Shown here: one piece after another, positions 32,802-58,046 of the stretch | Numbering within the stretch: position 1 is the first letter of the stretch | Layout: each line of letters opens with the position of its first letter | From: Branchiostoma floridae | Lineage: Eukaryota > Chordata > Leptocardii > Amphioxiformes > Branchiostomatidae | Direction: 5' to 3' | Length of the DNA stretch: 64,000 nucleotides | Assembly: GCF_000003815.2 (NCBI RefSeq) | Contig: NC_049993.1 | Location: 5,609,686-5,673,685, forward strand | Notes under the pieces: model-generated | Databases searched by the model: none | What the model was told of the DNA's origin: nothing | Seen by the model: the letters and a program-made list of their open reading frames with translations, nothing else | Made by a program: the position numbers and the translations under genes

Positions 32802-33290
32802 CAGACCAGACTTGTGTGAGGTGCCAGGCTGACGTGTGACGCCTGCATGCGTGTGTGGAGGAAAGGAAACCAGACCAGACTTGTGTGAGGTGCCAGGCTG
32901 ACGTGTGACGCCTGCATGCGTGTGTGGAGGAAAGGAAACCAGACCAGACTTGTGTGAGGTGTCAGGCTGACGTGTGACGCCTGCATGTGTGTGTGGAGGA
33001 AAGGAAACCAGACCAGACTTGTGTGAGGTGTCAGGCTGACGTGTGAGGCCTGCATGTGTGGTGTGGAGGAGAGGACATCAGACCAGACTTGTGTGAGGTG
33101 TCAGGCTGACGTGTGAGGCCTGCATGTGTGTGTGGAGGAGAGGAAACCAGACCAGACTTGTGTGACACTGTGAGGTGTCAGGCTGACGTGTGACGCCTGC
33201 ATGTGTGTGTGGAGGAGAGGAAACCAGACCAGACTTGTGTGAGGTGTCAGGCTGACGTGTGAGGTCTGCATGTGTGTGTGGAGGAAAGGA
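32802..33290 (+). repeat. 69-bp minisatellite running into fukutin exon 1
   Basis: Seven units of about 69 bp start CAGACCAGACTTGTGTGAGG and end GGAGGAAAGGAAAC. Unit starts are near 32802, 32871, 32940, 33009, 33079, 33148 and 33227. The sixth unit carries a small internal duplication. The last unit merges with coding sequence and supplies the proposed fukutin ATG. Confidence 0.92.
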
Positions 33291-36200: not shown

Positions 36201-39200
36201 GATTTTTCTTTTTTTTTGCCCTTGTGCATTAGTTTTGGGGTCTCCAGACGATGTCATCCATAAAATTAAGTCAGTGTGGTCTTGACTGTCAAAAGTTGAA
36301 ACACCATTCCCGTATTGTGATTTTGAGAGGAGAAAATGGGATTCCTTATGTTGCATCTTGTCAATAGAACTTTAGACGCTATCAACTAATTGATTTGGAA
36401 ACAGTAGTCGTTTATTTATCTTGTGGCAACATCACATTGCTGGGATTCCAACAGTCAATTATACCATGTATGTTTCCTTTCCAGAATGGAGATAGTGCCT
36501 ACCAGACTAGATGGTGTAAAACTCAACATTCCCAAGGACCCATCAGCGTTCCTCCAGCAGATTCCGCATGCCAGGTTCCTGGAGTGTAACTACGCGCAGG
36601 CCAGGAAATTCCACACAGCGTACGGGTCGGACCAGACTGCAGAGGGTGTTGAGTTTGTGGGGAAGGCCAAGTCTCTGCTGTCTCAGGGCAGGGCTGTGCT
36701 GGACAGGATAGGGGTGCGCTTCTGGATGAGCAGTGGGACATGTTTAGGTGGGTACTGGGACAGTGGGACATGTTTAGGTGGGTACTGGGACAGTGGGACA
36801 TGTTTAGGTGGGTACTGGGACAGTGGGACATGTTTAGGTGGGTACTGGGACAGTGGGACATGTTTAGGTGGGTACTGGGACAGTGGGACATGTTTAGGTG
36901 GGTACTGGGACAGTGGGACATGTTTAGGTGGGTACTGGGACAGTGGGACATGTTTAGGTGGGTACTGGGACAGTGGGACATGTTTAGGTGGGTACTGGGA
37001 CAGTGGGACATGTCTATTGGGTACTGGACAGTGGGACATGTTTAGGTGGGTACTGGACAGTGGGACATGTTTAGGTGGGTACTGGGACAGTGGGACATGT
37101 TTAGGTAGGTACTGGGACAGTGGGACATATTTAGGTGGGTACTGGGACAGTGGGACATGTTTAGGTGAGTACTGGGACAGTGGGACATGTTTAGGTGGGT
37201 GCTGTGACAGTGGGACATGTTTAGGTGGGTACTGGGACAGTGGGACATGTTTAGGTGGGTACTGGGACAGGATAGGGGTGCGCTTCTGGATGAGCAGTGG
37301 GACATGTTTAGGTGGGTATGATGATGATGATTGTTTTATCAGAAATGAAGATACCTGGCTACTTCACCGCAAACTTAAAACCACAGCAAACATTTTTCCA
37401 TGGCAGTAAGAGACTACAGTGCATGGTGCTACCGCGAACTTAAAACCACCGCGAACAGTCCTTTTTCCCCGCGAACTTAAATGCATTTACAGTACTAGGA
37501 TAGAGGGGTATAACATGTATGCTGTAAAATGGTTCTAACAATTCCAATACTTCATTACCAATAGTCAAATTTCTTCCTTAAACAATAATGACTGAAATGT
37601 ACTTGTAGTGTACCTTCACAATCGACTTGCACAATATGATAATGTAGCAATTTCCAATCTACTTTTATCATATTGATATTAGGCACATTTATACATAAAA
37701 ATATGAAGCTTCCTGAACCTCTCCTCTTCATCTTTATTGTCATGCATACTTTTACTTATTTCTTCAGTTTTTTTTATTATGTTTCTTCTATTACTCCTTC
37801 TCTTTCTCCACCCCCCTCCTATCCTTCTCACTAGCACTCACTATCTGGTTTATTAGATGTTGATGCTAGATGGCAGCTCACCAGCAGTCTCTGTGTTTAG
37901 GGCTAGCACTGTGTAGTTGAAGATATGAAGATCCTCCTTATCCTTCTCCTTATATCAACAGCCATTATAACCTACCTGTCCTGTATGTCTTCCCCTAGGT
38001 TGGTTCCGACAGTGTGGGATCATCCCCCACAGTAAAGACGTGGATTTTGGGATCTGGATCAAGGATTACAAGGACACACTGATCCCAGCTTTCCAGGCAG
38101 CCGGGCTGCCACTCAAACACAGGTTTGGAAAGGTGGGCAGATATTGTCAATATGTGTGAGGGCTAGGAAGATGTGTGTTACTTTGCAGTCTTTACTGTAA
38201 CTTGTAGGGAAGGGTTCAAGCTAGAAACACAGTTATTGCCAATTGCCAATATGACTTTGTTTTTCTCTGGATTTCTGTCCAGATTCCTGTCCAGGTTTCT
38301 GTCCGTTTTTCCGTCCGGACTGAACTTTTGGCAGTGGGCATCCTAGCGAAACAACCCACCCACCCCTTTTATTAAAAAAAGGAAAAATACTCTAGGTGCC
38401 TTTACCTGCTTTTTGTGGCACATAGCATGAAATTTTTCATTGATTATATCAACCATTCAATTAAATCAAATTATGCTATACAATTCCTTTCTTACTTTCA
38501 AACAAATTAAATTTCAACAAAATTCTTCAGTTCTTTTAATTAAAGGCCTTTGATGAAGCAATCTCACATAAATTATGTTAATCCTTGCAGGAAACTACAC
38601 AACAATGCAATGGCTGCAATTTACCTTGCAAAGCAAAAGTGGGTCCATGATACAATTGGATCAAATTATGCCATACAATTTTTTTTGTATGATTTTCCAT
38701 GCAGGTTGAGGACAGTTTTGAGCTGTCCTTTCAGTCAGGAGACGTCAAACTGGACATTTTCTTCTTCTATGAGGATGATGACATCATGTGGAACGGTGGG
38801 ACACAGGCGCGCACAGGCAAGAAGTTCAAGTAAGCCTTCATTCACTTTGAAAAAAAAGGAGAGTTATGTAGAAGCCTTTTTTACCTTTGCTTGCAAGAGG
38901 AGTGGATGTACAAGTAATGAGAGGTCAGCATTTTGTTGGGTTTATAGATTAAAAAATTTGCATAGCAGTTGTAGTGACTTTTTTGCTACATAACAATAAT
39001 TCTAATCTACCTTACAAAGGTAGATTACTACATCACTAGAACATGCATACTGGTATACATGTATCTAGTGGTTTTGGTTGTTAAATGTAGGGTAACAGTT
39101 CTTGGAAGGGGGCTCACATACATTTAAATTAGACAGACTAGGGATACCATAGAATAAAAAGCCTTTGTGTTATACCACATCCTTGTTATTCACCAATTAC

Positions 39201-39546
39201 ACCATACAGATCCTGCTTATTTTGTTTGTCATTGATGTATATTATCTTAATCACTACTACAACTACAAAATGTCAATTATTTGCTGAATTATAAATCCGC
39301 CTTTTCCTTTACTGATTTCACAGGTACATATTCCCCAGGTTCAGCCTGTGTTGGACAGAGTTTCTGGACATGAAGGTTCGGGTGCCGTGTGAGACTCTCG
39401 CGTATGTCCAGGCCAACTATGGTGCCAACTGGTACGAACCGGTCAAGCAATGGGACTGGAAAAACAGTCCGCCGAACGTCCAGCCAAATGGCCAGTGGCC
39501 AGAAGAGCAGTGGTCAGAAGTTATACAGTTGTATGATGTGAGATGA
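33270..39546 (+). CDS. FKTN: Fukutin (LicD-type ribitol-phosphate transferase), nine exons
   Basis: Exons: 33270-33380, 33794-33853, 34121-34324, 34728-34829, 35758-35936, 36485-36747, 37999-38132, 38705-38829 and 39324-39546. Together they make 1401 nt, or 466 residues, close to human fukutin at 461. Residues about 10-30 ([19 protein letters not shown]) form a type II signal anchor. LERPGQ-like, [10 protein letters not shown] and [13 protein letters not shown] segments follow. The nucleotidyltransferase core in exon 7 carries the D-V-D metal-binding motif at residues 320-322 ([10 protein letters not shown]). The C-terminus contains [24 protein letters not shown] and [17 protein letters not shown], all fukutin hallmarks. 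In vertebrates fukutin adds ribitol-5-phosphate to alpha-dystroglycan glycans in the Golgi. The start ATG lies inside the last minisatellite unit with an in-frame TGA upstream. The exon 6 end has many alternative donors, so its true length is uncertain. Confidence 0.92.
34336..34371. repeat. Perfect 36-bp palindrome just after a fukutin splice donor
   Basis: CAAGGAGCTTTTATCAGA is followed immediately by its exact reverse complement, with no loop, 12 bp after exon 3 ends. A further partial copy of the arm (AAGCTCCTTG) follows at about 34378-34387. Confidence 0.9.
34829..35262 (+). repeat. 30-bp G-rich minisatellite seeded on the exon 4 donor
   Basis: Around fourteen units of 28-31 bp with the core AAGGTCAGGTGGGGAGGGGG and a GCATAGTGTACA spacer. 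The first unit starts at the last base of exon 4 and contains the real donor (AAG/GTCAGG). Most later units repeat the same donor-like junction; the distal ones change AAGG to ACGG or ACAG. The runs of G are compatible with G-quadruplex formation. Confidence 0.92.
36731..37316 (+). repeat. 30-bp coding-frame minisatellite spanning the exon 6 donor
   Basis: About nineteen units built on CAGTGGGACATGTTTAGGTG plus GGTACTGGGA. The first unit is the end of fukutin exon 6 (SGTCLG) with its donor. The units near 36731-37000 are nearly identical. Two later units are shortened by 2 and 1 bp, restoring frame together. The array ends with a second copy of the last about 51 bp of exon 6 (37266-37316). 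The frame stays open through the array, adding [14 protein letters not shown] decapeptides if read. Confidence 0.95.
37361..37493 (-). mobile_element. GCGGT-rich MITE family, partial copy in fukutin intron 6
   Basis: This carries the phrases CCGCGAACTTAAAACCACCG and GAACTTAAATGCATTTACAG in inverse orientation to the copies at 41551 and 49262. One end (TGCATTTACAGT) is intact; the other is missing. Confidence 0.75.
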
Positions 39547-41017
39547 TGGTGAAGAAATTTCAGCCAGAATTTGCCTAAAGATGTCTTCCAATGCCAGATA
39601 ACTGTATATTATGTATATGGATGTACACAGTCATATATTAATTTAGCACATTAATATTGAAATTACTTCTATTGGCTACTATTTATAGTGTGTTATTTAA
39701 TAGTACTCTATGTTGATAAAGCCACAAGGAGTACAGGCATGCCTAATACTAATACTGTAAATATTTTAGCTTCATGTTCAGAACAATCAGATTGTATAGT
39801 TTTATATTAACATGAACTAGAATGCAGTATGTATGATAGAATACTAGAGATTCTTGTGCATGACCAAGCCCTTCGTACCTGACCAAGTTATGGTAGTCCT
39901 CATGACTATGAATGATGAACTACAGGTGTAAGGAGAGGGGTAGAGAGTAAGCCTTGTTTGAGAATACATTTTCTCTGCAGAGCCACCTAGCGGTGAAAAG
40001 TGGTCTTACAGCCTGATTGAAGCAGACAGTAACACGTGCAGGTAAAAACTTGGTTGTGTAAAAGAAAACTGTTAGATCCTATGGTCTACCAAGGTGTTGA
40101 AACCATTCATGGGTTGTGTTGTGTGATAATTTATTTTTGATACTTATTAAGCAAATGACAGTATCATAATTTTGTGTGAGCTAGTATGGTCCTGGAGACA
40201 ACTCTCCATCTTCTTGTCTAGCTTGTCCCCCCAATGACCAGGAGGTCAAGGGACTAGGAAGGTTAGTGGTCGTAGTAGGTAGTATGATAAGGGCATAAAA
40301 GTCTCATGGTAAAAGTTGTGAGTTTGGCAGTAACGAAAGATAGTGCAATAGTGTCAAGACAAAGTAAGAAAAAGAAAAACGATGGACATGCAGATAAGGG
40401 AGTGTCTCACTGTTGCAGACATGTAGCAAGGCAGTAAGTGTTGGGAATAAAGATATGTATTGGTGGAAATTACTGCCTTTCTGAGTGTTGTTCTTCATGC
40501 ATTGACTCAGTATTCTATTTTGTATCTTTAGAAAAAGACAAAAGTACATGATGCAGCCAGGAAACTCTTTACCTTTTAGATACTGAGTGAGTGCAAAAAT
40601 GAATATGTTTGTCATTGAATGATTAAGAAAATGAATGAATGAGTCAGTGAAACTATCATGTTAGAAAACTTCAGGTGTATTTCATCCTGTTGCATGATAT
40701 TTTCTACTATGTATACAATCAATCTATCATCACACTTTACCTGTAATTATTATAACATCTGTTTGCTTGTTGGACATCCTATTCTGTAGCTTCTGCTTTT
40801 GTGTTTTTACTTGTTGTTATGATTTAAGATCCCCGCAGGCAAATCAACAGCACCTATCTAAGTGGTAGGACGACTGTGTTCCCTGGCACAGAAGCCTCAG
40901 GCCACACAGGAACAATGGTGTTTGTGACCCTGATGACGTGCATGTGACATTACAGCATATGACCTGAACTGAGGTTCGTTTCCTCCTGCGTCCTTACTTG
41001 CCCGAGCCACAGTCGTT
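39547..41017 (+). other. Fukutin 3' UTR and shared 5' flank of receptor gene A
   Basis: The first part is probably the fukutin 3' UTR. From about 40040 to 41017 the sequence aligns by eye with 46020-47580 (before gene B) and 51600-52660 (before gene C). Shared phrases include ACTTGGTTGTGT, CATTGACTCAGTA, a GAATGAATGAGT tract and the GATCCCC(C/G)CAGGCAAA block. The segment just before each start codon is therefore a common promoter and 5' UTR copied with each gene. Confidence 0.6.
40446..40451 (+). terminator. Candidate poly(A) signal of fukutin
   Basis: AATAAA about 900 bp after the fukutin stop codon. It lies in sequence that also occurs downstream of receptor genes A and B, where an AATAAA is kept at 46292 and 51884. 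Confidence 0.35.
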
Positions 41018-44000
41018 ATGGGAGGACCAAGCTTCTGCTGTGTTGTCTTGGTGGTAATGATGATTGTGCAGCTTGACTGTGTTATAGGGAATGTACAAGG
41101 TTAGTCTAATGCCATGGTGTGTTTGGCTGGCTGCCATTTGTCCTTAATATTTATCAGAAAGACTGCTGACTAATTTTTTAAAACTTCACTTCCTGATGGC
41201 TTAGGGTAACATAGAGGAACAACCCATATGAGATTCAGAGATTTGTTTTGCTGTTCTGAACAATCTGTGATGTTAATAGTCTCCGTTTTATAAGGTTCAT
41301 TATGACCACCTGTCTACAATTCTACATTAAAAACGTTATCCAACTAAATTTTTAAAACTTCACTTCCTGATGGCAAAGAGGAACAGCCCATATATACATT
41401 CAGACATTTCTGTTCAGAACAACCTGTGTTTTAATTGTTTCTGCTGCTATTACACTAAGTCTTTCTGTTTTATTAGGTTCATTATGGCCACCTGTCTACC
41501 ATTTTACATTGAGAACTTTATCTAAAACTTACTCTTATTTTTAGTTGTATACTGTAAATGTATTTAAGTTCGCGGGGATTTAATTTCGCGGTAGCGGGAA
41601 AAAGGACCTTTCGCGGTGGTTTTAAGTTCGCGGTACCACTCTTAGTAGTCTCTTACTGCCATGGAAAAAAAATTTTCGCGGTGGCTTCAAGTTCGCGGTG
41701 AAGCGGCCACCGCGAAAACCGCGAACATTAAACCACCGCGAAAGTTTCTGCATTTACAGTTTCAGCTGTTTTACACATGAAATAGTACAATACATTTCAT
41801 AATTCAAGTGACCAAAAGGGAGATTGTGTCAGTGTTCAGTTTGTGTGAGCCATTAATTTATTTATTTTTAAACAGATCTTCGGTTAATAGGGGGTCAGAC
41901 ACCAAATGAAGGACGAGTTGAGGTACAATGGCGCAACAAACGTCGCATACGCTGGTTTGTAGTCTGTGAGAAGGGATGGAACAATGATGACTCCAGTGCA
42001 GCTTGCCGTCAACTAGGATATCCTGAAGGTGGTGAGGCCACGGACAAAAATATGGAACGGGGAAGTCTACCTTTTCTCCGGAAAAAATTTGAATGCAAGA
42101 GAGGTAAACTCTAGGGATTTTAATGATTCTTAACAATGATAATAACATAAATACCAACTCCAGTAATAACAGACAATGAATCATTTTATTGACTTGGTTA
42201 CAAAGCATTTCTTTGACATAGCTGCCACCATCTCTGTACAATGAAAACTGATTGATTGAATCATGGAAAAAAAATCACAATTTTTACATGTACTTTAATA
42301 ACTTTTTGCAATTTCAGGAGATTCTGTTTTGAGTGTCTGTAAAACTAGAAGGTTTAAAGAAAAATGTGAACCAGAGCATGAGCCTGCGAAATTCATCTGC
42401 AATGGTGAGATAATTTGATGTTAAGTTATTATACATTGCCTAAGGCAAGTGGGGAATTATTGGGTAATACATGTGTCAAGGTTGATTACTTCAAGTCAGG
42501 AAGTTTTGTCTCCCAGAGCTTTAAGGGTATAACAGTTGAATGGGAATAAGTTTGATGAAAGGTCTGCCATATGTAAGTTAAGAATTAGTGCACACCCATT
42601 ACAGATTGAAAGAGGCCGCTATATAAAGCTACCTGTCCACGAGAGATTTTGTAAATATTGCTCAATGAATGCGGTGGAAAATGAAATACATTTTATTAGT
42701 CAGTGTCCTCATTATGAGGTTGAAAGAAACCGATTATTCCAAACAATCGCTACAATTTCACCCAGTTTTTGCAACCTAGGACATCGCCAAAAGACTACAT
42801 TTTTACTGAAGTCACAAAACCCACTTATTTTGCAGGGTGTGGGACAGTTCATTAACCACTGCCTTCTAAGAAGAAGTCAAATCCAATAATAAGATGCAAC
42901 TTCAGCTGAATAGACATTAGTGCTATGTACTACATTGTATTTTGTTTTCCTCGAGAATGTTCCTGCAATTAGCCTTCGGGCATGACTTTGCAAATAAACT
43001 TGTTGAAATTGATGTGGGATACATTCTGACATTCGATAATACCAGTACATAAAAGTCCATTTGCAAGTTGGTCTGATTATATTAATTATGTAACATAGTA
43101 ACAGGTAACAGGTCACCTACTAACTTCTACTACTACATTGTCACCTGGACCTGGATATATCCCCACAGTGATGCTCAACACCACAGACACCACAGCTGAG
43201 CTGAGCCTAGCAGACAGCACTATATTGTGGCCAGCTACCACAATAGGGACTACAATTGAAACAACTTTGTTCGAAGATTTAATGACCAATGATGCAACAC
43301 AAGGTACAGAGTCTATCCTATAATTTTGTTACTGTTGCCTAGATGAAATTAGCCTGATTGGTTGGTGAGTTGAGAGTATGGGAGTCCCAGTAAATTAACT
43401 AACTTAAAGATGACAATCAGGCTAGATGAAATATGAGATTTCTGAAAAATTAACTGATACATTGAAGAACTTATGCCAAATCACTACTTATTACCCAGCT
43501 GTTAGCAATCTTGTTTGAAGAATATCATTGTTTGAGGATGCTGTTTCTTATTGTAAACTGTAGGCACTATAACTGCAGGAAGGAAGAGCCAAGCACCAAG
43601 CCCTCCTATTCAGTTACAGCAATTTCCTATTGGTGAGTAGTGCTATTCCCAACCTTATACTTTTTCTACTACATTTCATACATGTAGTTCTTAAGAGTAA
43701 TCCTCATCAAACTTAAGACAGAAGTTAACAAAGTTAACAAGAGGTCTTGGTACTGAGTTGAAAACCGAATTGAATGTAGTACATAGTTATGATATATGAT
43801 TGAAAGATAGTCTATAATGTTACATGCCAAGTGACACCGAAGACCATACACAACTAAGACTTCTAATATCAAAGTACATTAATGTGATTAAGGAAAAGTT
43901 TTATTAAGAAACAAAGTTTTGAAATTTCTCATTAATATGTGCATTTTAATCATATTCCAGCCGACTTGAAACTTTTAATCATTTTTATTACACTTAGAAA

Positions 44001-44770
44001 CTGAACTATACTCTTTTTTCTTCTTACAGTTCCAGTAGCAGCTTCCCTCGGCACTGTTCTTGGTTTGTTGTTGTTGTTGGCAGTATTACTGTTCATCTTC
44101 TGCAGAAGGAGAAGGTATGGTAAACATGATTTTAGTTCTTAAATACTAATTAACTGAGTCTTGAATTTCTCTTGACATAAAGTACAGGTATTTTCTCAAG
44201 ATGCAAATCACTAATGAATGAAGACCTTTATTGCACATTTTTGCCCCACTGGGCTAAGTACAGGTCACACGGTAAGAATCACATTATATGTAGCAATGGA
44301 AACAATCATACACATCTATATATGCAGATGTGCGTCTAATCTATTCTATGACATTCGACTTCCTAATGATGTTCATCTCTAAAACTCTTATTCTAAGTTT
44401 TAGTGATACCCTGGTACAATATATTTCCTCACCCCCAATAATGTCTTTGTATGTATCATGATTCAGGGCCAGGAGTCAAGAAGACAACATGACTGCAAAG
44501 CTGGACAAAGATACTGACCAGGTTGGTATGGGAGAATTAGGGACAGGACAACATGACGATGATGAACATAACTATCATACAATCCAGGAGCCTGCTATCA
44601 ACAGCAAGGGGCTGCCCATCATCCCAGCATCACCCAGTGAACACGATGAGAACTACAGCACCATCCCAGACCTACTGTCAGACAGGCTTGAAGAACGTGC
44701 CCCGGCCCCACCGCCGAGCCAAACGGATGAGTGTGGGACAGTGGAGAATGTTATTTATCAACCATCTTAA
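41018..44770 (+). CDS. Receptor gene A: SRCR ectodomain, transmembrane, tyrosine-motif tail
   Basis: Seven exons: 41018-41099, 41876-42103, 42318-42404, 43112-43303, 43564-43632, 44030-44114 and 44467-44770 (1047 nt, 348 residues). Exon 1 is a signal peptide (MGGPSFCCVVLVVMMIVQLD). Exons 2-3 encode one scavenger-receptor cysteine-rich domain (residues about 28-132) with LRLIGGQTPNEGRVEVQW, CEKGWNNDDSSAACRQLGYP and a C-terminal CEPEHEPAKFIC. Exons 4-5 are a Ser/Thr/Pro-rich stalk, exon 6 one helix (LGTVLGLLLLLAVLLFIFC) and exon 7 the cytoplasmic tail with YHTI, YSTI and terminal VIYQPS. All introns are phase 1 up to the helix exon, which ends in phase 2. The exon 4 start at 43112 is chosen because gene C has a matching SSGPGY segment; 43169 is an alternative acceptor. 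Relative to C the tail has lost its middle, and one tyrosine is cysteine (ECGTV for EYGTV). Probable innate immune receptor; ligand unknown. Confidence 0.82.
41551..41760 (+). mobile_element. GCGGT-rich MITE, full-length copy in gene A intron 1
   Basis: Ends ACTGTAAATGTATTTAAG and, on the other strand, ACTGTAAATGCAGAAA. The interior is rich in TTCGCGG and CCGCGAA words able to fold back. Size 210 bp, no open frame. Same family as 37361 and 49262. Confidence 0.85.
42536..42886 (+). mobile_element. 3' ORF fragment of a non-LTR retrotransposon
   Basis: The open frame reads KLRISAHPLQIERGRY, then RFCKYCSMNAVENEIHFISQ, CPHYEVERNRLF. The C-x2-C...H-x3-CPxY zinc-knuckle-like arrangement after an LRISAHxLxIExGRY motif is typical of the C-terminus of LINE-type reverse transcriptase polyproteins. 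It lies in intron 3 of gene A on the same strand and is 5'-truncated, as LINE insertions usually are. The family was not determined. Confidence 0.7.
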
Positions 44771-45298
44771 AGGGGCATTCCACTCCACACGATGGTGTTA
44801 TTTTCCGATAGATATTAAATTTAGGAAGTAATAACTGCATACTACTTCACATTATACGATAAATTACCCAGTTGCTCCACGTGCCTCAAAGGCATTCAGT
44901 CTTCTACTTAACTCCCCAAGTACCCTCTAATTGAATTAATCCTACGGCTGAATACAATGCAAAACTTTTAGGTAAAACTACAAAACTAATTTCAGGTTCG
45001 CTAAGAAATCTCGTCTTGTTCTTGTATTCTTTGCTATCTTATGAGCAATTTGCCTTCTCGGTGTGCTTAGCGTACCTCATTTATTCCGAAAATATGTACG
45101 ATAAACAAAGTGTCTATGCGCATAGGGAATGCATGGGAAGGGTCTGCATGGGTTTAGTGAGTGTCATTAGTGTTTACAAAACATACATCGCGTAATTCAT
45201 CCCAAGATGAATTTCACAAAATTCGGCTGATTGTGTATTCATTGACACATTATCAATTGGAAAACAAGACTCCCTTCTGGAGTGGAATGCCCCTTTAA
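44767..45298. mobile_element. TTAA-flanked MITE (piggyBac-like target) on the gene A stop codon
   Basis: A 524-bp element (44771-45294) with 17-bp perfect terminal inverted repeats AGGGGCATTCCACTCCA is flanked by TTAA on both sides (44767-44770 and 45295-45298). Gene C has an uninterrupted CTTAAGGGCAC at the equivalent place, so the empty site is visible. TTAA duplication is characteristic of piggyBac-type transposases. The left TTAA contains the TAA stop of gene A. Confidence 0.88.
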
Positions 45299-46291
45299 GG
45301 GCACTTTCTCACATAACTGTGCACCATCCTGAAGTACTGGTACAAAGCCTTGAGTGAATATGCCTGGGTCTTTGCATGTGACACCACATCATTGCTTGAA
45401 ACTGAAAGAGTAATCCCTATGTTATGCCTCTAATCATAAAGTATACAAAGTCAACTCCCATGTTCAGCCATCCAGCTTAGTATCCAAGACTACCATCATA
45501 GTCAGATGAGATTAGATTATGTAGGGATATTACATTAAAGGAAGGACCAGAATGTGTTGAAAGTCATGATGAAATGTTTTAACCAAGTTAACCGTTGCTT
45601 TATATTTCCTTATTATTTTTTCAATGTTCTTGTACATATTTTTTCCTGACATAATTGACTCATTTGGTATGCAAGGATGTATATATTATGTAACAGCATT
45701 GAATGCTATGTTAAGAAAACACTGCTGATTAATACATTTATCAATATTTACATAGTAAGGGAATCTTGAAGAAATTGAAAGGACAAGCCAGTGAGCTTTC
45801 CTTCATACAAATCAGATAACACAGATGATATTTAATGCAATACAGTACTCAAAGGTGAACTTTTCTGAGGTTTGGTTGTGTGTAAGTTCTGGTAAGGTTG
45901 TTGTACATTATTTCTACCTTATACATGTACTGGAAACTGTATTATTCATAAAAATCTGCCTAAGGCAGTAGGTAAGTGTAGCAATACAGTAGCATACAGA
46001 CTAATGGAACAGAACATGGCCAGAACTTGGTTGTGTGCAAGGAAACTCCTCTGCCCTTCCAACAAGTTGAAACTGTCCACAGATAAGTTTATCAATAATA
46101 AATTTTGTAGTAATTGACAGTAGATTGGAGCTAGTTTGGTAAATGCACTAGAAAAGCTTATGGGAGAAGATGTGAGTAACATTAACATGTGCAATAGTGT
46201 AAATACAACATGAGAAGGACAGCAAGGAAAGAGAGAAAATAATAACAGACTTGCTGATGTAGAGTCTCTCACTTAATTGCAAACAGCATGA

Positions 46292-46297
46292 AATAAA
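46292..46297 (+). terminator. Candidate poly(A) signal downstream of gene A
   Basis: AATAAA in a block (AAACAGCATGAAATAAA, then ATACTGGTGGAA) that is repeated downstream of gene B at 51884-51889. The site is 1.5 kb after the gene A stop, so an earlier unrecognised signal is possible. Confidence 0.3.
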
Positions 46298-46672
46298 AAA
46301 AATACTGGTGGAATTTAACACCCTATTATTTTTTTCAAACATTGACTCAGTAGTCTACATTATTTCTATATGTTTAGATATCACCAGTTGAAAGAATGAG
46401 ACTGGCTGCAGATAGAGTGTCGCACGACGTGCGAGCTACTATAAGTCTAAGTAAGTTGACAGAAAGGAGTAAAATAAAAGTTGCCAAAGGGGCCATTCCA
46501 TTAAGAGTTTCAGGACGGTCAGTCAAGAAACTACCGGTATTTCCCCTCTAGTGATTGAGTGGATAGATGATTGAGTTCGTCAGTGAATGAATGAAAGAGT
46601 CAGTGCTAGAAAATAAACAATCATGTCAGAAAAGTTCTGGTGCATTTCATTCCCCTAACAACAACTACCTTA

Positions 46673-46773
46673 TGTAGCCTGAGCACCTTCCATCCTGGCG
46701 CAATCCTTTTGCTTGCTAACCATGCAAAAGGATTGAGCCGGCGGTCACTACGGATGATGGTACTCAGGCTACA
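46673..46773. mobile_element. Foldback hairpin element, gene A-B interval
   Basis: TGTAGCCTGAG at the left and CTCAGGCTACA at the right bracket an imperfect hairpin (CAATCCTTTTGC.../...GCAAAAGGATTG near the loop). The left arm is missing about 10 bp compared with the copy at 52211. Confidence 0.75.
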
Positions 46774-46785
46774 CTATAATCAGGT

Positions 46786-47224
46786 TAAAAAAAGTTAAAC
46801 CCTTCCCGCGCCAAGGACAGTGCCCATTTCTGGTGCATAGGGCGGTGCCCATCTCTGTTTCGTTAGCCCTGGGCCACACACAACACAATCACTGCAGCAG
46901 GGGGCTAGTCCACCGGTAGTGGTGTGTGTTCAACTTCCATACTCTTTCCCGAATGCTGAGTGCTAAGCAGAGAAGGCAGCACGTACCATTTTTATAGTCT
47001 TTGGTATGACTCGGCCGGGATCGAACTCACGACCTTCCGAATGCAAGGCGAACACTCTACCCACTAGGCCATTGCACCGGCTACTCATTTTCACCTGAGC
47101 ATAGTGAGGAAAGTCGTGTTAAGTGCCTTTCCCAAGGGCACAAGATCGGTGACACGCAGTCGGATTCGAACCCGCAACCTCTCGGTCACGAGGCACAAAT
47201 GCCGCCGCTGTGCCATGCGACTTC
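46786..47224 (-). mobile_element. Dimeric tRNA-derived SINE with 15-bp target-site duplications
   Basis: On the minus strand the element starts with a tRNA-like head holding A box TGGCACAGCGG (47205-47215) and B box GGTTCGAATCC (47162-47172). A linker with GTGCCCTTGGGAAAGGCACT follows. A second tRNA-like unit has A box TGGCCTAGTGG (47061-47071), a TGC triplet in the anticodon-loop position and B box GAGTTCGATCC (47018-47028). The T-rich end is at about 46790. The 15-bp ACACTATAATCAGGT occurs at 46771-46785 and 47225-47239, giving clean target-site duplications. Confidence 0.88.
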
Positions 47225-47354
47225 ACACTATAATCAGGTACTAGTAATCAATACATAAACCTGTAGAAAGGTGTCCTTGGCTACTCTCTCAATCCTTATA
47301 CATGTGGCATGCACGTTAACACAACTTAGGATTTGTGGAATTGTTATGATATAT

Positions 47355-47580
47355 ATATGTAGGATCCCCCCAGGCAAACTATCAGTAACAACACCATACC
47401 TAAGTTGCAGGACGACTCTACGCTGTGATGAATGAGTTTCAGGCGACAGGGAGACAATGGTGTGTGTCACCTTGTTGGCCCGAAGTGATTATGACAGCAC
47501 GTGACCTATCACATCCAAGGTCTGTTTTCTTCTGTTCCCCTTTCCTTACCCGACCAGGCCACAGATCTACAGTGTGTATC
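47355..47580 (+). promoter_or_regulatory. Promoter/5' UTR block of gene B, shared with gene C
   Basis: Almost identical to 52437-52662: GATCCCCCCAGGCAAACTAT, CAGGACGACTCTACGCT, GGCGACAGGGAGACAATGG and GACAGCACGTGACCT recur in the same order. CACGTG (47499 area) is an E-box. Gene A keeps a more diverged version (40831-41017). Confidence 0.6.
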
Positions 47581-50486
47581 ATGGCTCTTCAATCTGGCTT
47601 CTGTCTTATTTTTGTGGCTTTGATTATGACTGTGCATCTGCACTATGTTCTGGGGAACATACAAGGTTAGTTTGGACTCCTGATGTGCCTTAATTCTTCA
47701 CTATATCTATTGAATGTAAATGTTGGTAATTTATTCATTTTCTCTTTAGATTTACTTCCTGAAAGCTTTTTTAAACCTTGTTTAACAAGTGATGGCTTCG
47801 TGTGACAGTATGTTTAATGTATTCTGTTTCACAGCACAACTATTACAAAGATGGTACATGTCTAGATCTAGTGCTTGAGGAAATTGTCCCATTCAGCTCT
47901 AAAGGCTCTATAAGTGAAGACCTAAGATCAGTAAGAATAATGGAAAATGGTCATCACTACTGGAGGCATCCCGAAATTCCCACAGTTGATACTTTAAAGT
48001 CATCATGATGTTACATGTAGATGGTATCCCAGATATTTTCATTTCCTATCATTAAAAATCCAATAACATGACTCATTCACAGATTTTAGAATAGTGGTTC
48101 CTTGAAGTGGTGGATGTATGTGTGTAAATTGATAAAGTATAATACTGCATTTGATTATCCCCTGCAGTGTGTAGTACTGGGTACTCTCTCAAAGGTGGCT
48201 ACTGCTACAAAACATCCGGGGGTAACTACACTGCTGCACAAGCACGGTCATACTGCACTGATGAAGGAGCAATTGTAGCCGAGCCAAAGAGCCAAGAAGA
48301 GCACGACTACATCAAATCATTTATATCTGAAACCACCTGGATTGGAATAGCTGACCTTGATGATAGTGGCTCATTTGAGTATGTCAGTGACAATACATCA
48401 GTAGGTTTCAAGTCATTGGCTGATTCCCTCGGAATTGGCAAATGTATGGCAATGGACAAAGATCAAGATTATAACTGGATACGCACTGGCTGCTCCGCAG
48501 AACATCCAGTTGTTTGTCAACAAGGTAAGCTATTCTACCTGTCATCATAGTTGGGTTGCATGTTCAGTAACTATTGTTCACACTAACTTGTGGAGTTAAC
48601 AAGTGCAAAGTCTTACATACCATTGACAGTGCCAGGCTGACACCTGCGGTATTGATGTGTTTTGGATATGTGGTAAAATGTAAGCCTTTTTTGGTGGAGA
48701 TGTTAAGCTAAGACCATGTGAGGGTAAACACCATGCATTTGCTTGCCAATGTTTTCTACTTGTTTTCCCTCAGTACCTATAGGTAACATGGCATCTACAA
48801 CCGTTTTCCCATCATTTGGCCATAACACCCCAACACGAGGTACAGCAAGTATGCAATTGATCTCTTGTACTGTCTTGGCTTCTCTGGTGACACATTTAAT
48901 GTTGATACAAGGTCTTGTGTTCATTAATTGCTCTTCATTGATGTATTTATGATGCATATGAAATATACTGTTTGCTCTTAGCATAGAGTAATGACATCAC
49001 AGAAAGGACCGCTACTAGTTGCTTGTGGTGAAGTCCAAAGAGCATTTATTAGACAATTGGTTGAAAGATTATTAGATGTTTTCAGACAAGACCAAATTCA
49101 AATGTGAATGATAAAGGAAAGTTGATTTCACTTTAACATCAACAAATGTTTCCCATTGTGCATGGTAGGTCCCAATGAGAACAAAGAAAGCAGTACAACA
49201 GCAGGATTGAACTCATCTCCACGCTCCAGCAACCAGTCTCAACAGTTTCCCATTGGTGAGTACTGTAAATGCATTTAAATTCGTGGGGATAAAATATCGC
49301 GGTAGCGGGAAAAGGGACTTTCACGGTGGTTTTAAGTTTGCAGTAGCACCATACATTGTAGACTCTTACTGCCATGGAAAAATGTTCGCGGTGGTTTTAA
49401 GTTCACGGTGAAGCGGCCACTGCGAAAACCGCGAACAGTAAACCATCTCAAAAGTTTCTCTATTTACAGGATGTGATTTTTTTCATTTTGTCCCAAACAG
49501 TACAGTTGTATACTTTTTTTGATAAACAACAATTTATCTCCAAAATCATTTTATGAGTTTTTCAATCAATAACAAAGTGAAAATCAATAGATTTACATAT
49601 TCGAAATGGTCAAGATTCAATGCATGTAACATGAGTAGTACAACACTTACCTGGGGTACATGTATGTGCCTTTACAGTATGTACTGGTTGATTCAATGAG
49701 ACATACTGTACAGAAGGTGTAGGCTGAGTTAAAACAGTTTTCCTTTGAATTTGGTAATTATTAGCTTTTGAATGTCACTTGAGCATGTGTCTCATTAACC
49801 ATAATTCATACCAAATTTTCTGTGAGTAATTTGAAAATACTGGTAGTGAGTTGTTTGTATAACATACCTAATAACTGTATTATTATTAACCCTATTACTC
49901 TCACAGTTGCAGTAGCAGCTTCAGTTGGCACCGTTCTTGGCTTGTTGCTGTTGTTGGCAGTTTTACTGTTCTTCATCTGCAGAAAAAGGTAAGTTCAATA
50001 TGCTTTTTGTTATTGAATACTTGAGTCTTCTTCAATGATACAATTAAAGTATATGTATTTTCATCTACCAATGTGCAATCTAGTTCTAATTTTTTTCTAT
50101 CCATATGCTTGTAAGTTTGTGAAATTTTTGACCCCAGATAATGCCTTTGTATCTATTGTAATTCCTGGGTCAGGCACCAAGAAGACAACATGAATGATGG
50201 AGTTGAAAACGACTATGAAACAATCCAGGATCCTGCTATCAACAGCAACGGGCTGCCTGTCGCCTCAACAACTCCACCTAGTGAACACAACGAGAACTAC
50301 AGCACCATCCCCGACCTACCATCAGACAGGTTAGATGAACGTACACCAGCCGCACGGCTGAGCCAAGCCAATGTCTACTACAACGTTGTTGGGGACAGTG
50401 GTACCCCCAGCCCCATAGACCAGGCTGGAACGTCGGACACTACAAATACTACACAAGAACCGGAGTATGTCAATGTCAATATATAA
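47581..50486 (+). CDS. Receptor gene B: C-type lectin ectodomain, transmembrane, truncated tail
   Basis: Six exons: 47581-47665, 48168-48524, 48774-48839, 49169-49255, 49907-49988 and 50174-50486 (990 nt, 329 residues). Signal peptide MALQSGFCLIFVALIMTVHL. The CTLD (residues about 29-147) has CSTGYSLKGGYCYKTSGG, NYTAAQARSYC (with an N-glycosylation site), TTWIGIADL, GKCMAMD and the final CSAEHPVVC. The usual EPN/QPD and WND calcium motifs are absent (NWIRTGC replaces the WND site), so classical sugar binding is doubtful. Two stalk exons, one helix (VAVAASVGTVLGLLLLLAVL) and a tail with YETI, YSTI, VYYNVV and a last EYVNV follow. Introns are phase 1 until the helix exon (phase 2). The tail lacks the membrane-proximal TDQVGMGELG block of A and C and stops early at a TAA just before a further conserved segment. 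Confidence 0.85.
49262..49470 (+). mobile_element. GCGGT-rich MITE in gene B, 6 bp after a splice donor
   Basis: Starts ACTGTAAATGCATTTAAATT immediately after the donor GTGAGT of the second stalk exon and ends CTATTTACAG. The internal words match the copy at 41551. It lies inside the intron without touching the donor. Confidence 0.8.
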
Positions 50487-51178
50487 CAAGGCATCCAAAC
50501 GCAAGGAAAACAAGTGACCATAGGTAACATAGGTGATGTATTTATGGTTTCTGCCACATCAGTTGCAACAATATATTATATATTATGATATGGACAGTCC
50601 CAGACAAATAACAACGAACAGAAAAGAAAATGAAGTCCTAATGATAGCTCAGGACAAAGTATGTAGTAACATTACTTTTTTAACTATAACATTGTCACTG
50701 TTATGTGCTGTAATGTACATGTAATGTGCTAGGAAGCCAGACTCTAACATCTGTTTTGGGATTCTACATTAGAGAACACATAAATAACCTCGTATCTACT
50801 TGAAGATAAGCTAATTACCAAACCCCAAAATGACCATGGTACAGCATGGAATAACTGATAACACGACGTGTACAAAAGGATCAGAGAAAATCATGCAACA
50901 TTTGCTTGACAATATCCAATTACCGCAAGGCCCTAACAGGCGGAGATATTGCAGACCTGGACCAATATTCCGAAGGATGTAAGGGTAATTTCTGAAATTA
51001 TCGCATTGATTATAAAAACAGCTAACGTGAAAAAAATGTGCATAGCTGCGTGCAGAGGATATGCCAAACTACAAACGAATGTGGCAAAGGAAACATACAG
51101 ATGGAGATGCCAACACTCATCACATCGTACAAAAACAAAGCTCTGTCGCTGGGGGTTACCCTCCAGTCACAGAGCAAT
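50487..51178 (+). other. Insertion of about 660 bp in the gene B tail region
   Basis: In gene C, CGCAAGGAAACAAAGAAGGA is continuous. In gene B the equivalent left half ends at about 50518 and the right half resumes at 51179. The intervening DNA is AT-rich with no recognised transposon ends and no credible open frame. Confidence 0.6.
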
Positions 51179-51325
51179 AAGAAGGAGGGATCTGATGACA
51201 CCACAGAATGGGGAACAGGTGCAGATGTGCCAGAGTATGCAGTTGTGAATAAGATTAAGAAGGACCAGAAAAAATAAGTAGAGGGTAAAGTAGAGGATGA
51301 GTATGAGACAGAGGAGAATGTTATT
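51179..51325 (+). pseudogene. Relic of the distal signalling tail of gene B
   Basis: Reads KKEGSDDTTEWGTGADVPEY and AVVNKIKKDQKK before a stop, matching gene C's KKEESDETIDQGTSADVPEY and AVVNKIKKDQK. Sequence similarity continues into GAGTATGAGACAGAGGAG (gene C: DEYGTVD). It is cut off from the gene B reading frame by an early stop and the 660-bp insertion. No acceptor that would rescue it was evident. Confidence 0.75.
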
Positions 51326-51883
51326 AAGGCACTCTCACACATCTTTATCGCAACATAACTGTGCACCATCCTGAAGCATGATACAGTATTTGATGCAATA
51401 CAGTACTCAAAGCTGAACTTTTCTGAGGTTTGGTTGTGTGTAAGTCAGGTACTAGTTCTTGTACATTATTAATGATACTTATGTATAGTCTACATTATAC
51501 TGGGAACTGTATTATTAATTTAAAAAAACTGCCTTAAAAGGCCTAGGTAAGTGTAGCAATACAGTAACATACAGACTATTGAATAGAACATTGGAACTTC
51601 CGCCAGAACTTGGTTGTGTGCAAGAAAACTCCTAGTACGCATTCCAACATGTTGAAACTGTCCATGGATATGTTTATCAATAATCTATTTTTCAGTAATT
51701 GACAGTAGCATAACTAGATGGGAGCTGATACATTAAAAAAGCTTGTTGGAGAAGATGTGAGTAACAGTAACATGTGCAATAGTGTAAATACAACATAAGA
51801 AAGACAGCAAGAAAAGAGATAATTAATAACAGACATACTGATGTAGAAGTCTCTCGCTATTGCAAACAGCAGGAAGTATCTGA

Positions 51884-51889
51884 AATAAA
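51884..51889 (+). terminator. Candidate poly(A) signal downstream of gene B
   Basis: AATAAA in CTGAAATAAAAATACTGG, the counterpart of the site at 46292. Confidence 0.3.
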
Positions 51890-52210
51890 AATACTGGTGG
51901 AAGTTTACACCCTATTATTTGTCCTCATACATTGATTCAGTAGTGTAACCTTTTATGTTTCGCGATATCACCATTTGACAGAGGAAGAAGCAAAACAAAT
52001 TAAAGTAGCCAAAGGGGTCATTTCATTAAGAGTTTCAGAAGGGTCAGCCAGGAAACTGTTTTACCCTTTAGTGATAGAGTGGATGAATGAATGAGTTTGT
52101 TAGTGAATGAATGAAAGAGTTTGCTAGAAACAATGATGTTAGAAACATTCTGGTGCATTTCATTCCCCTTACACCATTATCCTACTCAATGTGCATCTAC
52201 CTACTTAATA

Positions 52211-52314
52211 TAACCTGAGTATGATCCTCTGTAGTGACTGCTGGCTCAATCCTTTTACTTGCTAATCATGTGAAAGGACTGAGCTGTCACTACAGAGGAT
52301 CATACTCAGGCTAA
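52211..52314. mobile_element. Near-perfect 100-nt hairpin, gene B-C interval
   Basis: The arms at 52214-52238 and 52286-52310 are exact 25-bp reverse complements (CCTGAGTATGATCCTCTGTA...). Pairing continues inward (GGCTCAATCCTTTTAC against GTGAAAGGACTGAGCT) with few mismatches and a small loop. It occupies the same place relative to gene C as the element at 46673 does to gene B, so it was copied with the repeat unit. Confidence 0.85.
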
Positions 52315-52436
52315 AATTTATGTGCATGCCATCAGTTCATCAATACACATGTAGTAAGGTGTTCTTGGCTCCCCTCTCCCGATCCTTGTGCATGTAACAT
52401 GTATGTAAACACAATATAGGATTCATGGAATTGTTA

Positions 52437-52662
52437 TGATTTAGGATCCCCCCAGGCAAACTATCAGTAACAACACCGTAGGTAAGTTGCAGGACGACTC
52501 TACGCTCTGTGATGAATGAGTTTCAGGCGACAGGGAGACAATGGTGTGTGTCACCTTGTTGGCCCGAAGTGATTATGACAGCACGTGACCTGTCACATCC
52601 AAGGTCTGTTTTCTTCTGTTCCTGTTTCCTTACCCGACCAGGCCACAGTCCTACAGTGTATC
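52437..52662 (+). promoter_or_regulatory. Promoter/5' UTR block of gene C, shared with gene B
   Basis: Near-identical counterpart of 47355-47580, including the CACGTG E-box phrase GACAGCACGTGACCT. The high identity indicates a recent tandem duplication or gene conversion and suggests co-regulation of B and C. Confidence 0.6.
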
Positions 52663-55534
52663 ATGGCTCTTCAATCTGACTTCCATCTTATTTTTGTGGC
52701 TTTGATTATGACTGTGCATCTGCACTATGTTCTGGGGAACATACAAGGTTAGTTTGGACTCCTGGTGTGCCTTAATTCTTCACTATATCTATTGACTGTA
52801 AATGTTGGCAATTTATTCATTTTATCTTTAGATTTACTTCCTGAAAGCTTTTTTAAACCTTGTTTAACAAGTGATGGCTTCATGTGACAGTATGTTCAAT
52901 GTATTCTGTTTCACAGCACAACTATTACAAAGATGGTACATGTCTAGATCTAGTGCTTGAGGAAATTGTCTCATTCAGCTCTAAAGGCTCTTTAAGTGGA
53001 GACCAAAGATCAGTAAGAATAATGGAAATGGTCATCACTACACATTATTGAATAGTGGTTCCTTGAAGTGGTGGATGTATGTGTGTAAATTGATAAAGTA
53101 TAATACTGCATTAATGATTATCCCCTGCAGCAAGCTCCTTGCCTGCAGTGTGTGTTACTGGTTACTCTCTCAAAGGTGACTACTGCTACAAAACATCCGG
53201 GGGCAACTACACTGCTGCACAAGCACGGTCATACTGCATGGATGAAGGAGCAATTGTAGCTGAGCCAAAGAGCCAAGAAGAGCACAACTACATCAAATCA
53301 CTTCTAATAGTTCTATCTAAAACCACCTGGATTGGAATAGCTAACCTTAAGGATAACAGCTCTTATGTGTACGACAGTGACCATACACCAGTAGGTTTCA
53401 AGTTATTGGGTGTTGATTATGGAAGTGGCAAATGTGTGGCAATGGACGAAGATCAAGATTATAACTGGGCCCGCTATGACTGCTCAACAGAACATTCTGT
53501 TGTTTGTCAACAAGGTAAGCCAGTCTACCTGTCATCAAAGTTGGGTTGCATGCTCATACTAATTTGTCAGCAAAAGCAGTCTCACATGCAATTAACAGTG
53601 AGAATTGCATTTTTCCAGACTGGCTGACATCTGTGGTATGGATATGTGGTTTAGATATGTGCTAGTATGTGGTTAAAACCTAAACCTTTTTTGTTGTTGT
53701 AGAAATATTAAGCTAGACCATGTGAAGGTAAACATCATGCATTTGCTAGCCAATGTTTTCTACTTGAGATGTGTGATTTCCCCTCAGTACCTGTAGGTAA
53801 CATGGCATCTACAACTGTTTTCCCATCATCTGGCCCTGGATATGACACCACTATGATGCTGAGTATGACAACAGCCCCAACACCAGGTACAGCAACTATG
53901 CAATTGATGTCTTGTTTGTCAGTACTGTTTTGGCTTCTCTGGTGACACATTTAGTTTTGATGCAAGGTCTTGAGGTTATTTATTGTTCTTCATAGATGTG
54001 TTTATAATGTATATAAAAACATAGTATTACTGTGTACTCTTTAGTGGGACAAGTTAGCAACCAGTCATGACATCAAAGAAAGGACCCCTAGCTATACCAA
54101 CTTAGTGATGCAGTCCACAGAACATTTATTACACAATTGGTTTAAAGATTATTAGATATTTTCAGACAAGATCAAATTCCAATGTGAATGATAAAGGAAA
54201 CTTGATTTCACTTGAACATCAACGAATGTTTTCCATTGTACATGATAGGTCCCAATGAGAACACAGAAGGCAGAACAACTCGAAGCTCCAGGAACCAGTT
54301 CCCCATTGGTGAGGAACCAACATGTTTTTTTTTCATCCATAACATGTATGGATTATTTTTAGGGATAAATCACTGTATAGAATTGCTAATTTATGGCTTT
54401 GAAAAAAGCACTCAAATATGAAGTGAAAACCAACTTGGAAATATATTCAAAGCATAAGAACATGCAGATGTCTATATAGTACAGTAACTGTTTGATTCAA
54501 CAGGACATAGCCATGTAACATTATGATACAAGAGATATAATAGGTAGTTGTCCTTTAGATTTGCTGATTAATCTTTTAAATGGCACATGTGTGTGTTTGT
54601 CAGTGTCACTATCATACTCTATACCAAATTTTCTGAAAATGCCAGTAGTAGCTGTTAGCATAGTATGCCTGATAAAGTTAACTGTATTATGCTCTTTTAC
54701 TCTCACAGTTGCAGTAGCAGCTGCAGTTGGCACCATTCTTGGCTTGTTGCTGTTGTTGGCAGTTTTACTATTCTTCATCTGTAGAAAAAGGTAAATTCAA
54801 CAATGTGTTGCTTTAATTGAATACTTAAGTCTTCTTTTGATACAAATTAAGTACAATGTCATGTATTTTCATCTACCAATGTGCAATGTGGTCATAATTT
54901 TTTTCAATTGAAAACATTGTAAGTTTGTGCAATTTTTCACCCCAGATAATGCAGTTTGTATCTATTGTAATACAGGGTTAGGCGACAAGAAGACAACATG
55001 ACTTCAAAGCCCGACAAGGACACCGACCAGGTTGGTATGGGAGAATTAGGGATGGTGCCAAATGATGGAGTTGAAAATGATCATGACTACCAAACAATCC
55101 AGGATCCTGCTATCACCAGCAAGGGGCTGCCTGACATCCCAACAGCTCCACCCAGTGAACACGATGAGAACTACAGCACCATCCCAGACCTACTGTCAGA
55201 CAGGGTGGACGAGCGTGCCCCGGCCCCACCGCCGAGCCAAACCGATGTGTACTACAGTGTTGTTCGGGACAGCGGTACCGCGCGCCCCCCAGACCAGGCT
55301 GAAGCATCGGACACCGCGAAGACAACACAAGAACCGGAGTACGCCGTGGTCAAGAAGGCATCCAAACGCAAGGAAACAAAGAAGGAGGAATCTGATGAAA
55401 CCATAGACCAGGGAACAAGTGCAGATGTGCCAGAGTATGCAGTTGTGAATAAGATAAAGAAAGACCAGAAAGCAGAGGGTAAAGTCAATGATGAGTATGG
55501 GACAGTGGATAATGTTATCTATCAGCCGTCTTAA
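52663..55534 (+). CDS. Receptor gene C: C-type lectin ectodomain, transmembrane, long tyrosine-rich tail
   Basis: Six exons: 52663-52747, 53131-53514, 53788-53886, 54249-54308, 54709-54790 and 54982-55534 (1263 nt, 420 residues). Leader MALQSDFHLIFVALIMTVHL. The CTLD (about residues 29-156) has CVTGYSLKGDYCYKTSGG, NYTAAQARSYC, TTWIGIANL, GKCVAMD, NWARYDC and HSVVC; canonical calcium/sugar residues (EPN/QPD, WND) are not seen. The CTLD exon has two in-frame acceptors 18 bp apart (53131 or 53149). Then come two stalk exons, a helix (AAAVGTILGLLLLLAVLLFF) and a 184-codon tail with YQTI, YSTI, VYYSVV (ITIM-like), EPEYAVV, VPEYAVV, EYGTV and terminal VIYQPS, mixed with Lys/Glu-rich spacers. Spacing between motifs is longer than in a canonical ITAM. 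This is the most complete tail of the cluster. Probable innate immune signalling receptor; ligand unknown. Confidence 0.87.
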
Positions 55535-57254: not shown

Positions 57255-58046
57255 TGGGTCTGGTGTGTTTGTAAAGACAGGTAGAAGGAAGGTCGAAGGT
57301 AGCGTGTGCCTGAAAACGTGCCCCGTCCGGGGCGACTTTCTTGGAAGTCGTGGCGTTTGGAACCGCCGCACGACGGGCACTGCAACCTCTTCTCTTGCCT
57401 TTCTTGATATAGATTAACAGTCGTAAAAGAGTAAAGCAAAAACAAAACATGGAAACAACGTATTGTGGATATGAACATGGACAAGTAAAATAAGTACAGT
57501 AAGGTGCCAAAGTTGTCATAGCAAATCAGATAAGGTCTCCAAGCAGATGTTGGGGTGAAAGATCGTAATATTTTCTGAGTAACCGCCCGTATTCCCTTTC
57601 CCCGTAGAAGCAGGTTAACAGTTGAGTAAAAGGACAAATTTGTTAAAAGAAAACTGATGATGTCCACCCATTCTTAACCCATTCAATACGTAGAATATGT
57701 GATGCACACATGAATGTAGGCGGCGCTTCAACAGGCGGACATGGTGCCACATGGAGTTTCCTCGCGGTGACTGAAAACTACTCTCTTTATGTGAACTAGC
57801 GTCTTGAATGTCATTCTCGGCGTGTGTAAAGATGTCTGGACCTATTTCGACAAGGTTTCACTAGACTTAAACTTATCTCTAGTATGTTTAGGCATTTCAC
57901 AGGTCGGGACTACATACCCCATGAGAGCCCAAGCTGCAGTACCGATCACGACCGCGCCCTGAAAAGTGACTAAGACGACCGCCAAATTGCCAAATTTCCC
58001 TCTTTTCATGAATGGGGAAATACTGAAAGGCTCGCAAAGGGGTTAG
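57255..58046 (-). repeat. Left arm of a large inverted repeat
   Basis: Read on the minus strand this arm matches 60155-60978. Shared blocks are AAGAAAGGCAAGAGAAGAGG, GACGGGGCACGTTTTCAGGC, CCAACATCTGCTTGGAGA, GCCTGTTGAAGCGCC, CTGCAGCTTGGGCTCTCAT and CAAATTTGGCAATTTGGCGGTC-like sequence, in the same order. Both arms keep a short open frame with KKGKRRGCS...TSKKV...DGARFQAH, whose identity I do not know. Confidence 0.8.

Follow-up and report, generated by a model that had tools for sequence, protein, structure and literature searches.

Tandem lancelet receptor genes bearing different recognition domains on a shared chassis, and a probable donor of their lectin-like head

Exon shuffling in lancelets, biased towards symmetric exons flanked on both sides by phase 1 introns (1-1 exons), has already been published (Huang et al. 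2014, PMC4284660), and the idea that domain shuffling is very fast in these animals has been disputed in part as a product of gene-prediction errors (PMC4967905). In this work we describe three neighbouring genes, named A, B and C, that lie in a window of 64,000 nucleotides of the Branchiostoma floridae genome (G000:C15:5609686-5673685). They seem to encode receptors that share a leader, a transmembrane segment and a tyrosine-bearing tail (together called the chassis), but the recognition domain, or head, is a scavenger receptor cysteine-rich (SRCR) domain in A and a C-type lectin-like domain (CTLD) in B and C. Most likely, judging from exon and intron similarity, the CTLD head was copied into the common ancestor of B and C from a gene on contig C10 of the same assembly.

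Several described systems come close to this arrangement. As in the report of Huang et al. (PMC4284660), symmetric 1-1 exons encoding immune-type domains have moved between lancelet genes; however, that work presents genome-wide statistics between species, while here a single swap can be followed together with its tandem sister genes, a probable donor and the fossil of an epidermal growth factor-like (EGF) exon. FrLRR of Branchiostoma belcheri (PMC10199209) is also a lancelet receptor for which import of leucine-rich repeat (LRR) exons into another gene was proposed. In contrast to A, B and C it is anchored by glycosylphosphatidylinositol, has no signalling tail and represents a read-through fusion, and sister genes that keep the old head beside the new one are not described for it. 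For BbLcLRR, a lancelet LRR receptor carrying the motifs DDYATV and HDYSEV, phosphorylation by Lck has been reported together with binding to SHIP1 and, to a lesser extent, SHP1/2; the authors accept looser forms of the immunoreceptor tyrosine-based inhibitory motif (ITIM) (PMC8211107). The receptor is similar to our genes in being of type I, in coming from a lancelet and in the Y-x-x-V motifs of its tail, and differs in its LRR head; a shared chassis is not shown for it, and the LRR genes matched in our searches are only 25-33% alike in the module region. Finally, the vertebrate paired receptors CD300A/C and CEACAM (PMC12447643, PMC2110893) are tandem genes partly homogenised by gene conversion, but there the heads are alike and the tails differ, whereas in A, B and C the tails are alike and the head folds differ. 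We found no description of this locus, or of an SRCR/CTLD swap on one chassis, at the level of titles and abstracts, with most subscription papers outside our reach. The mechanism, i.e. shuffling of 1-1 exons and exon import into a receptor, is thus already known, and what is new is a resolved head swap with its probable donor and fossil. Since the swap is visible at the DNA level, with these two and the sister genes, it depends little on a gene predictor.

The three genes follow one another in the same orientation, on the plus strand (A, 41018-44770; B, 47581-50486; C, 52663-55534), and in each the encoded order is leader, single recognition domain, stalk, transmembrane segment and tail. Exons were placed by GT-AG sites and a continuous frame. 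The leader exons lie at 41018-41099 (A), 47581-47665 (B) and 52663-52747 (C); the stalk is divided between two exons in each gene (A, 43112-43303 and 43564-43632; B, 48774-48839 and 49169-49255; C, 53788-53886 and 54249-54308); the transmembrane exons are at 44030-44114, 49907-49988 and 54709-54790, and the tail exons at 44467-44770, 50174-50486 and 54976-55534, respectively. All introns up to the transmembrane exon are in phase 1, and the intron between the transmembrane and tail exons is in phase 2.

Comparison of the three units by blastn (cut-off E <= 1e-4) revealed that A resembles B and C on both sides of its head. The similarity begins upstream, in the 5' untranslated region (UTR) of A (40822-41017, homologous to 47357-47580 in B and 52431-52662 in C), and continues through the leader, with identity over 5' UTR plus leader of 65% for A-B (E 3e-8) and 66% for A-C (E 3e-14). 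The transmembrane exon is 82% (A-B, E 6e-30) and 80% (A-C, E 8e-22) identical, the tail 79% (E 4e-39) and 82% (E 5e-88), and the 3' flank 81% (E 2e-125) and 67% (E 6e-42), while no match at this cut-off covers the SRCR or CTLD exons in either comparison. Between B and C, similarity spans most of the unit. Considered exon by exon, the leader and the transmembrane exon outscore all 1000 shuffles in both A-B and A-C comparisons. The first stalk exon does so for A-C, though narrowly (score 35 against a shuffle maximum of 34), and for A-B its score is reached by 253 of 1000 shuffles; for the second stalk exon the scores are non-significant (reached by 59/1000 and 482/1000 shuffles in the two comparisons), and what A, B and C have in common here is limited to position, phase and the QFPIV junction. 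Seven pairs of chassis introns from A-B and A-C were aligned, and matches of only 34 and 18 bp, in a single pair, were obtained. For the transmembrane exon, the ratio of nonsynonymous to synonymous substitution rates (dN/dS) is 0.20-0.35, and for the tail 0.38-0.46; the CTLDs of B and C give 0.92 when compared with each other (all as point values only).

The likeness from the 5' UTR to the 3' flank identifies A, B and C as paralogues in tandem. Because it extends beyond the gene on both sides, the head exchange appears to have taken place within a duplicated unit and not through fusion of two half genes. A preliminary description of this DNA had proposed a leader, transmembrane segment and tail common to the three genes, with SRCR in A and CTLD in B and C, as well as phase 1 introns around ectodomain and stalk exons; Pfam, blastn and shuffles agree with the former, and splice sites and frame with the latter. 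Its further claim of two shared stalk exons holds for position and phase, and for the sequence of stalk 1 between A and C, but homology of stalk 2 finds no support in sequence.

The heads themselves are clearly assigned by Pfam: the two exons of A at 41876-42103 and 42318-42404 encode an SRCR domain (PF00530, E 9.5e-15), and B and C carry Lectin_C (PF00059) with E 4.8e-13 and 1.8e-12, respectively. Phase 1 introns flank the SRCR exon pair and every CTLD exon on both sides, in agreement with the phase rule of modular shuffling. Group A SRCR domains have six cysteines and are divided between two exons, and the domain of A fits this pattern (the cysteines were counted by eye in the translation). 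It matches the CD163 entry 9nb8 with E 2.8e-44. Receptors of the CD5/CD6/CD163 type likewise carry SRCR heads on a membrane receptor, but A has a single SRCR of group A pattern in two exons, and orthology is unsupported. When 150 of 309 candidates were scored, the outside match to this SRCR with the best E-value had an identity of 39%, reaching up to 50% over shorter stretches, and no donor locus for it was found in this set; in SRCR genes on C17 an intron seems to divide the domain at a different position. By parsimony, SRCR is probably the older head. As for the lectin-like heads, calcium-dependent sugar-binding C-type lectins possess an EPN or QPD motif and a WND motif. By eye, these motifs are absent from the CTLDs of B and C and from C10a, a related CTLD on C10, which makes classic calcium-dependent sugar binding unlikely.

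All three tails retain Y-x-T-I-Q and N-Y-S-T-I. The tail of C has the fullest set of tyrosine motifs, with VYYSVV, two copies of PEYAVV, EYGTV and VIYQPS in addition. In A, there is a large deletion of the middle block present in C, and ECGTV stands in place of EYGTV. The tail of B ends early relative to C. Unrelated sequence of about 670 bp follows (within 50487-51376), and at 51179-51376 the match to the end of the C tail resumes. There may be an extra exon of B downstream of 50486, or its tail may be truncated. When the tails were inspected by eye for the canonical ITIM, [I/V/L/S]xYxx[I/V/L], VYYSVV in C and VYYNVV in B fitted, and none was seen in A. Thus, the proposal that one signalling module had been kept stands for the two Y-x-T-I motifs, but not for the rest of the tail, as the distal motifs differ, A has its deletion and B its truncation.

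One part of the tail behaves differently from the remainder of the chassis. A block of 30 codons at 44633-44722 in A is near-identical to 55151-55240 in C: synonymous divergence (dS) in it is 0.10 for A-C and 0.62 for B-C, whereas the transmembrane exon gives the reverse (A-C 0.76, B-C 0.17). The sites at which A, B or C is the odd one out number 0/12/1 in the block and 14/0/5 in the transmembrane exon (Fisher p 1e-7). Gene conversion between the SRCR gene A and the CTLD gene C would be the likeliest cause of this likeness. On the other hand, the block was picked after the pattern had been seen and the comparison has no outgroup, counts restricted to synonymous sites give a p of only 0.012 (A-odd/B-odd 0/3 in the block, 6/0 in the transmembrane exon), and other tail blocks lack the pattern (A-C dS 0.49 and 0.40), all of which speaks against conversion. 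An alternative, compatible with the missing outgroup, is that B changed faster, since its truncated tail may be under weaker constraint. However, a quicker B would not shrink the A-C distance from 0.76 in the transmembrane exon to 0.10 in the block, nor does it fit the fall of A-odd sites from 14/19 to 0/13, and we consider it unlikely. Apart from the presumed A-C conversion, the near identity of leader and intron 1 between B and C (dS 0; 96-97%), set against a CTLD dS of 0.15, suggests a second conversion, between these two genes.

Where did the CTLD come from? The genome searched was one 513-Mb assembly of 431 contigs, and the closest outside relatives of the CTLD of C are on C10 (99 of 670 candidates scored). 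There, in a stretch termed L068, EGF and CTLD exons alternate, and Pfam agrees for the five stretches submitted (three EGF, two CTLD). C10a is 62% identical to the CTLD of B and 55% to that of C, and it too is encoded by an exon of 357 bp, as in B. The dS from C10a is 0.48 to B and 0.50 to C; from another CTLD, C10b, it is 1.01 and 1.03, and between C10a and C10b 1.05. In a protein tree of 15 of the 17 extracted rows (the C6 copy and the partial C10d were excluded), B, C, C10a and C10b cluster together (95/97).

The similarity is not confined to the coding exon. Positions 47777-48539 of B are collinear with 4841-5614 of L068 on its reverse strand. Upstream of C10a lies an EGF exon whose 3' end and splice donor are matched by 73 bp in intron 1 of B (47777-47849; 77%, E 1e-11). 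About 170 bp then fail to align, and the match to C10 picks up again from 48019 to 48539 (71%, 384/542 identical, E 2e-72), where it takes in the last part of the intron, the CTLD exon (48168-48524) and the first 15 bp of intron 2. C contains the same fossil at 52859-52931 (79%, E 8e-13), followed by a CTLD exon at 53131-53514 (70%, E 3e-43). Against the EGF2 exon of C10, the fossil reaches a score of 64 in B and 69 in C, where the shuffle maximum was 29 and none of 1000 shuffles reached the B score; against EGF3 it scores 21 and 18, and against the fourth EGF exon 16 in both genes. Intron 1 of A showed no sign of an EGF exon, its score of 22 comparing with a shuffle mean of 20 and a maximum of 29. 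The C10 exon is open, whereas an in-frame stop and a 2-bp gap interrupt the stump in B and C.

C10 thus provides a probable donor locus that matches in both exon and intron sequence. The fossil is common to B and C, which points to one event. As an EGF stump and an intron were carried along, the head seems to have been copied as intron-bearing genomic DNA and not from spliced RNA, and since the stump is broken in B/C and the exon open in C10, the C10 gene, or one closely related to it, was probably the source and C15 the recipient. Moreover, the chassis introns of A barely align with those of B and C, yet parts of B intron 1 align with C10, which is a hint, but not a proof, that the import is younger than the split of the chassis. 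Exon shuffling inside the array, as proposed earlier, is thus supported insofar as a head was shuffled on a duplicated chassis; the CTLD, however, seems to have come from C10 and not from within the array.

This reading has points against it. The protein tree does not settle the branching order of C10a, C10b and B/C. Intron 2 of B has no match to C10 past the 15 bp, and in C nothing but the fossil and the CTLD exon matches. The fossil is only about 75 bp long and counts as a single event, intron 1 being 97% alike in B and C, and against EGF1 it scores 19 (B) and 29 (C), the latter just above the shuffle maximum of 27. The dS estimates for the chassis, 0.57 (0.31-0.96) and 0.75 (0.43-1.35), and for the import, 0.50 (0.31-0.75), have overlapping intervals and do not separate the events in time. 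The gene models were read from genomic DNA alone, with predicted splicing.

A different history would be differential loss, in which the ancestor had SRCR and CTLD in series, A kept the former and B and C the latter. Such mosaics exist in this genome: in stretch L067 on C2, an interval of about 500 bp separates SRCR from CTLD exons (Pfam E 2.6e-31 and 1.3e-19, respectively); these exons, at 4545-6101 of L067, are downstream of EGF-like frames, apparently in one mosaic gene. However, a search for remnants of the other head found none, be it of a CTLD in the unit of A (best E 0.12) or of an SRCR in those of B (0.47) and C (1.0), although old remnants could have decayed, and the EGF stump, which has no trace in intron 1 of A, links the B/C CTLD to C10. 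We therefore regard differential loss as improbable. Still less probable is an artefact of the gene models, with the SRCR exons forming a separate gene between two chassis fragments: lancelet gene-prediction errors are documented (PMC4967905), but one leader precedes and one stalk-transmembrane-tail series follows these exons in a single frame with phase 1 junctions, and A is homologous to B and C on both sides of them. A transfer in the opposite direction, with the last CTLD of the C10 gene copied from the B/C lineage, is hardly credible, given the broken intronic EGF end in B/C and the open exon in a repeated EGF-CTLD pattern in C10, even though dS alone, by which B/C and C10a are sisters, gives no direction.

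Two further candidates were rejected. Transposon-borne transfer of the CTLD was considered on account of an inverted-repeat element in A intron 1 and B intron 4, but none was found at the edges of the imported piece; copies of this element, of about 210 bp, are at 41549-41760, 49261-49469 and 37356-37482, and it also occurs in L049. A CTLD on C6 identical to C10b might be taken for a second recent export from the donor, but the copy adjoins a run of N, an assembly artefact is at least as likely, and it was not used. The segments concerned, G000:C6:14756154-14757581 and G000:C10:9935706-9937133 (L007 and L008), have in common a stretch of 1428 bp, which contains the C10b CTLD and an EGF exon and is 99.86% identical between them, in otherwise unlike flanks; the C6 copy may have arisen in assembly or by very recent copying of the donor cassette.

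A search of the whole genome with the second stalk exon, transmembrane segment and tail of C gave 22 matches at E up to 1 (all 44 candidates scored), eight of which are pieces of A, B and C. The remaining 14, nine of them on C7, fall in long open frames and are weak, with E from 4e-5 to 0.71 and 25-33% identity. The 5' region of B, searched at the DNA level, matched only itself and C (2 of 2 candidates), A being too diverged for that search. Strong module matches in this one assembly are thus limited to A, B and C, which form a family of three members. Every unit has a leader and a tail of its own and a single head, instead of several head cassettes for a shared leader and tail, and the locus does not bear out the earlier likening to a segmental recognition repertoire. 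Twelve weak-match loci were translated on the plus strand only, and seven gave a frame longer than 200 amino acids; by eye all seven are LRR proteins, six with a membrane helix in the LRR frame. Homology of their tails to those of A, B and C was set aside, the 25-33% identity being treated, though not proven, as compositional. Large frames of LRR receptors with a helix and many tail tyrosines, weakly similar to the module, are found on C7 at 16.2-17.7 Mb, at C10:6353738 and C18:13321171, and on C3 (L053, L056-L066); these are perhaps relatives of the published BbLcLRR.

Taken as a whole, the history we consider probable would be as follows. One type I receptor gene was duplicated in tandem, giving rise to A, B and C. 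The B/C ancestor would have received, in its head region, a genomic copy of part of an EGF-CTLD repeat gene (that on C10, or one closely related to it), and this part comprised the end of an EGF exon, the following intron and a CTLD exon. Being symmetric (phase 1-1), the CTLD exon splices in frame, while the EGF stump would have decayed within intron 1. Later, A-C gene conversion may have partly homogenised the tails. The products would be surface recognition receptors, in which two unrelated head folds feed related signalling tails; their surface expression, ligand binding and phosphorylation are inferred from sequence. A Src-family kinase might phosphorylate the tail tyrosines (Y-x-T-I, Y-x-V-V), which would then serve as binding sites for SH2 proteins. 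Since BbLcLRR, with its looser ITIM-like motifs, is reported to be phosphorylated and to bind SHIP1 and SHP1/2 (PMC8211107), the tails of A, B and C probably dock SH2 proteins in a similar way. Lacking a canonical ITIM, A may differ from C in signalling.

Some other elements were noted in the window. An open reading frame (ORF) in A intron 3 (42533-42889) looks by eye like the end of a non-LTR (long terminal repeat) retrotransposon and has no Pfam match. Two ORFs at 37971-39546 look like parts of a fukutin/LicD-type gene, and neither has a Pfam match. An inverted pair of about 800 bp, 75% identical, is formed by 57265-58054 and 60150-60964, and self matches resembling tandem repeats are present at 32802-33294, 34826-35267 and 36731-37318.

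The locus thus offers a small case of an immune-type receptor that changes its recognition fold and keeps its signalling end. More speculatively, it might be a receiving site, whose chassis accepts phase 1-1 exons with their introns from mosaic genes and whose tails are kept alike by conversion. We hold this to be doubtful, but if it were true, one would expect to meet additional head folds on this chassis in other lancelet species and individuals.

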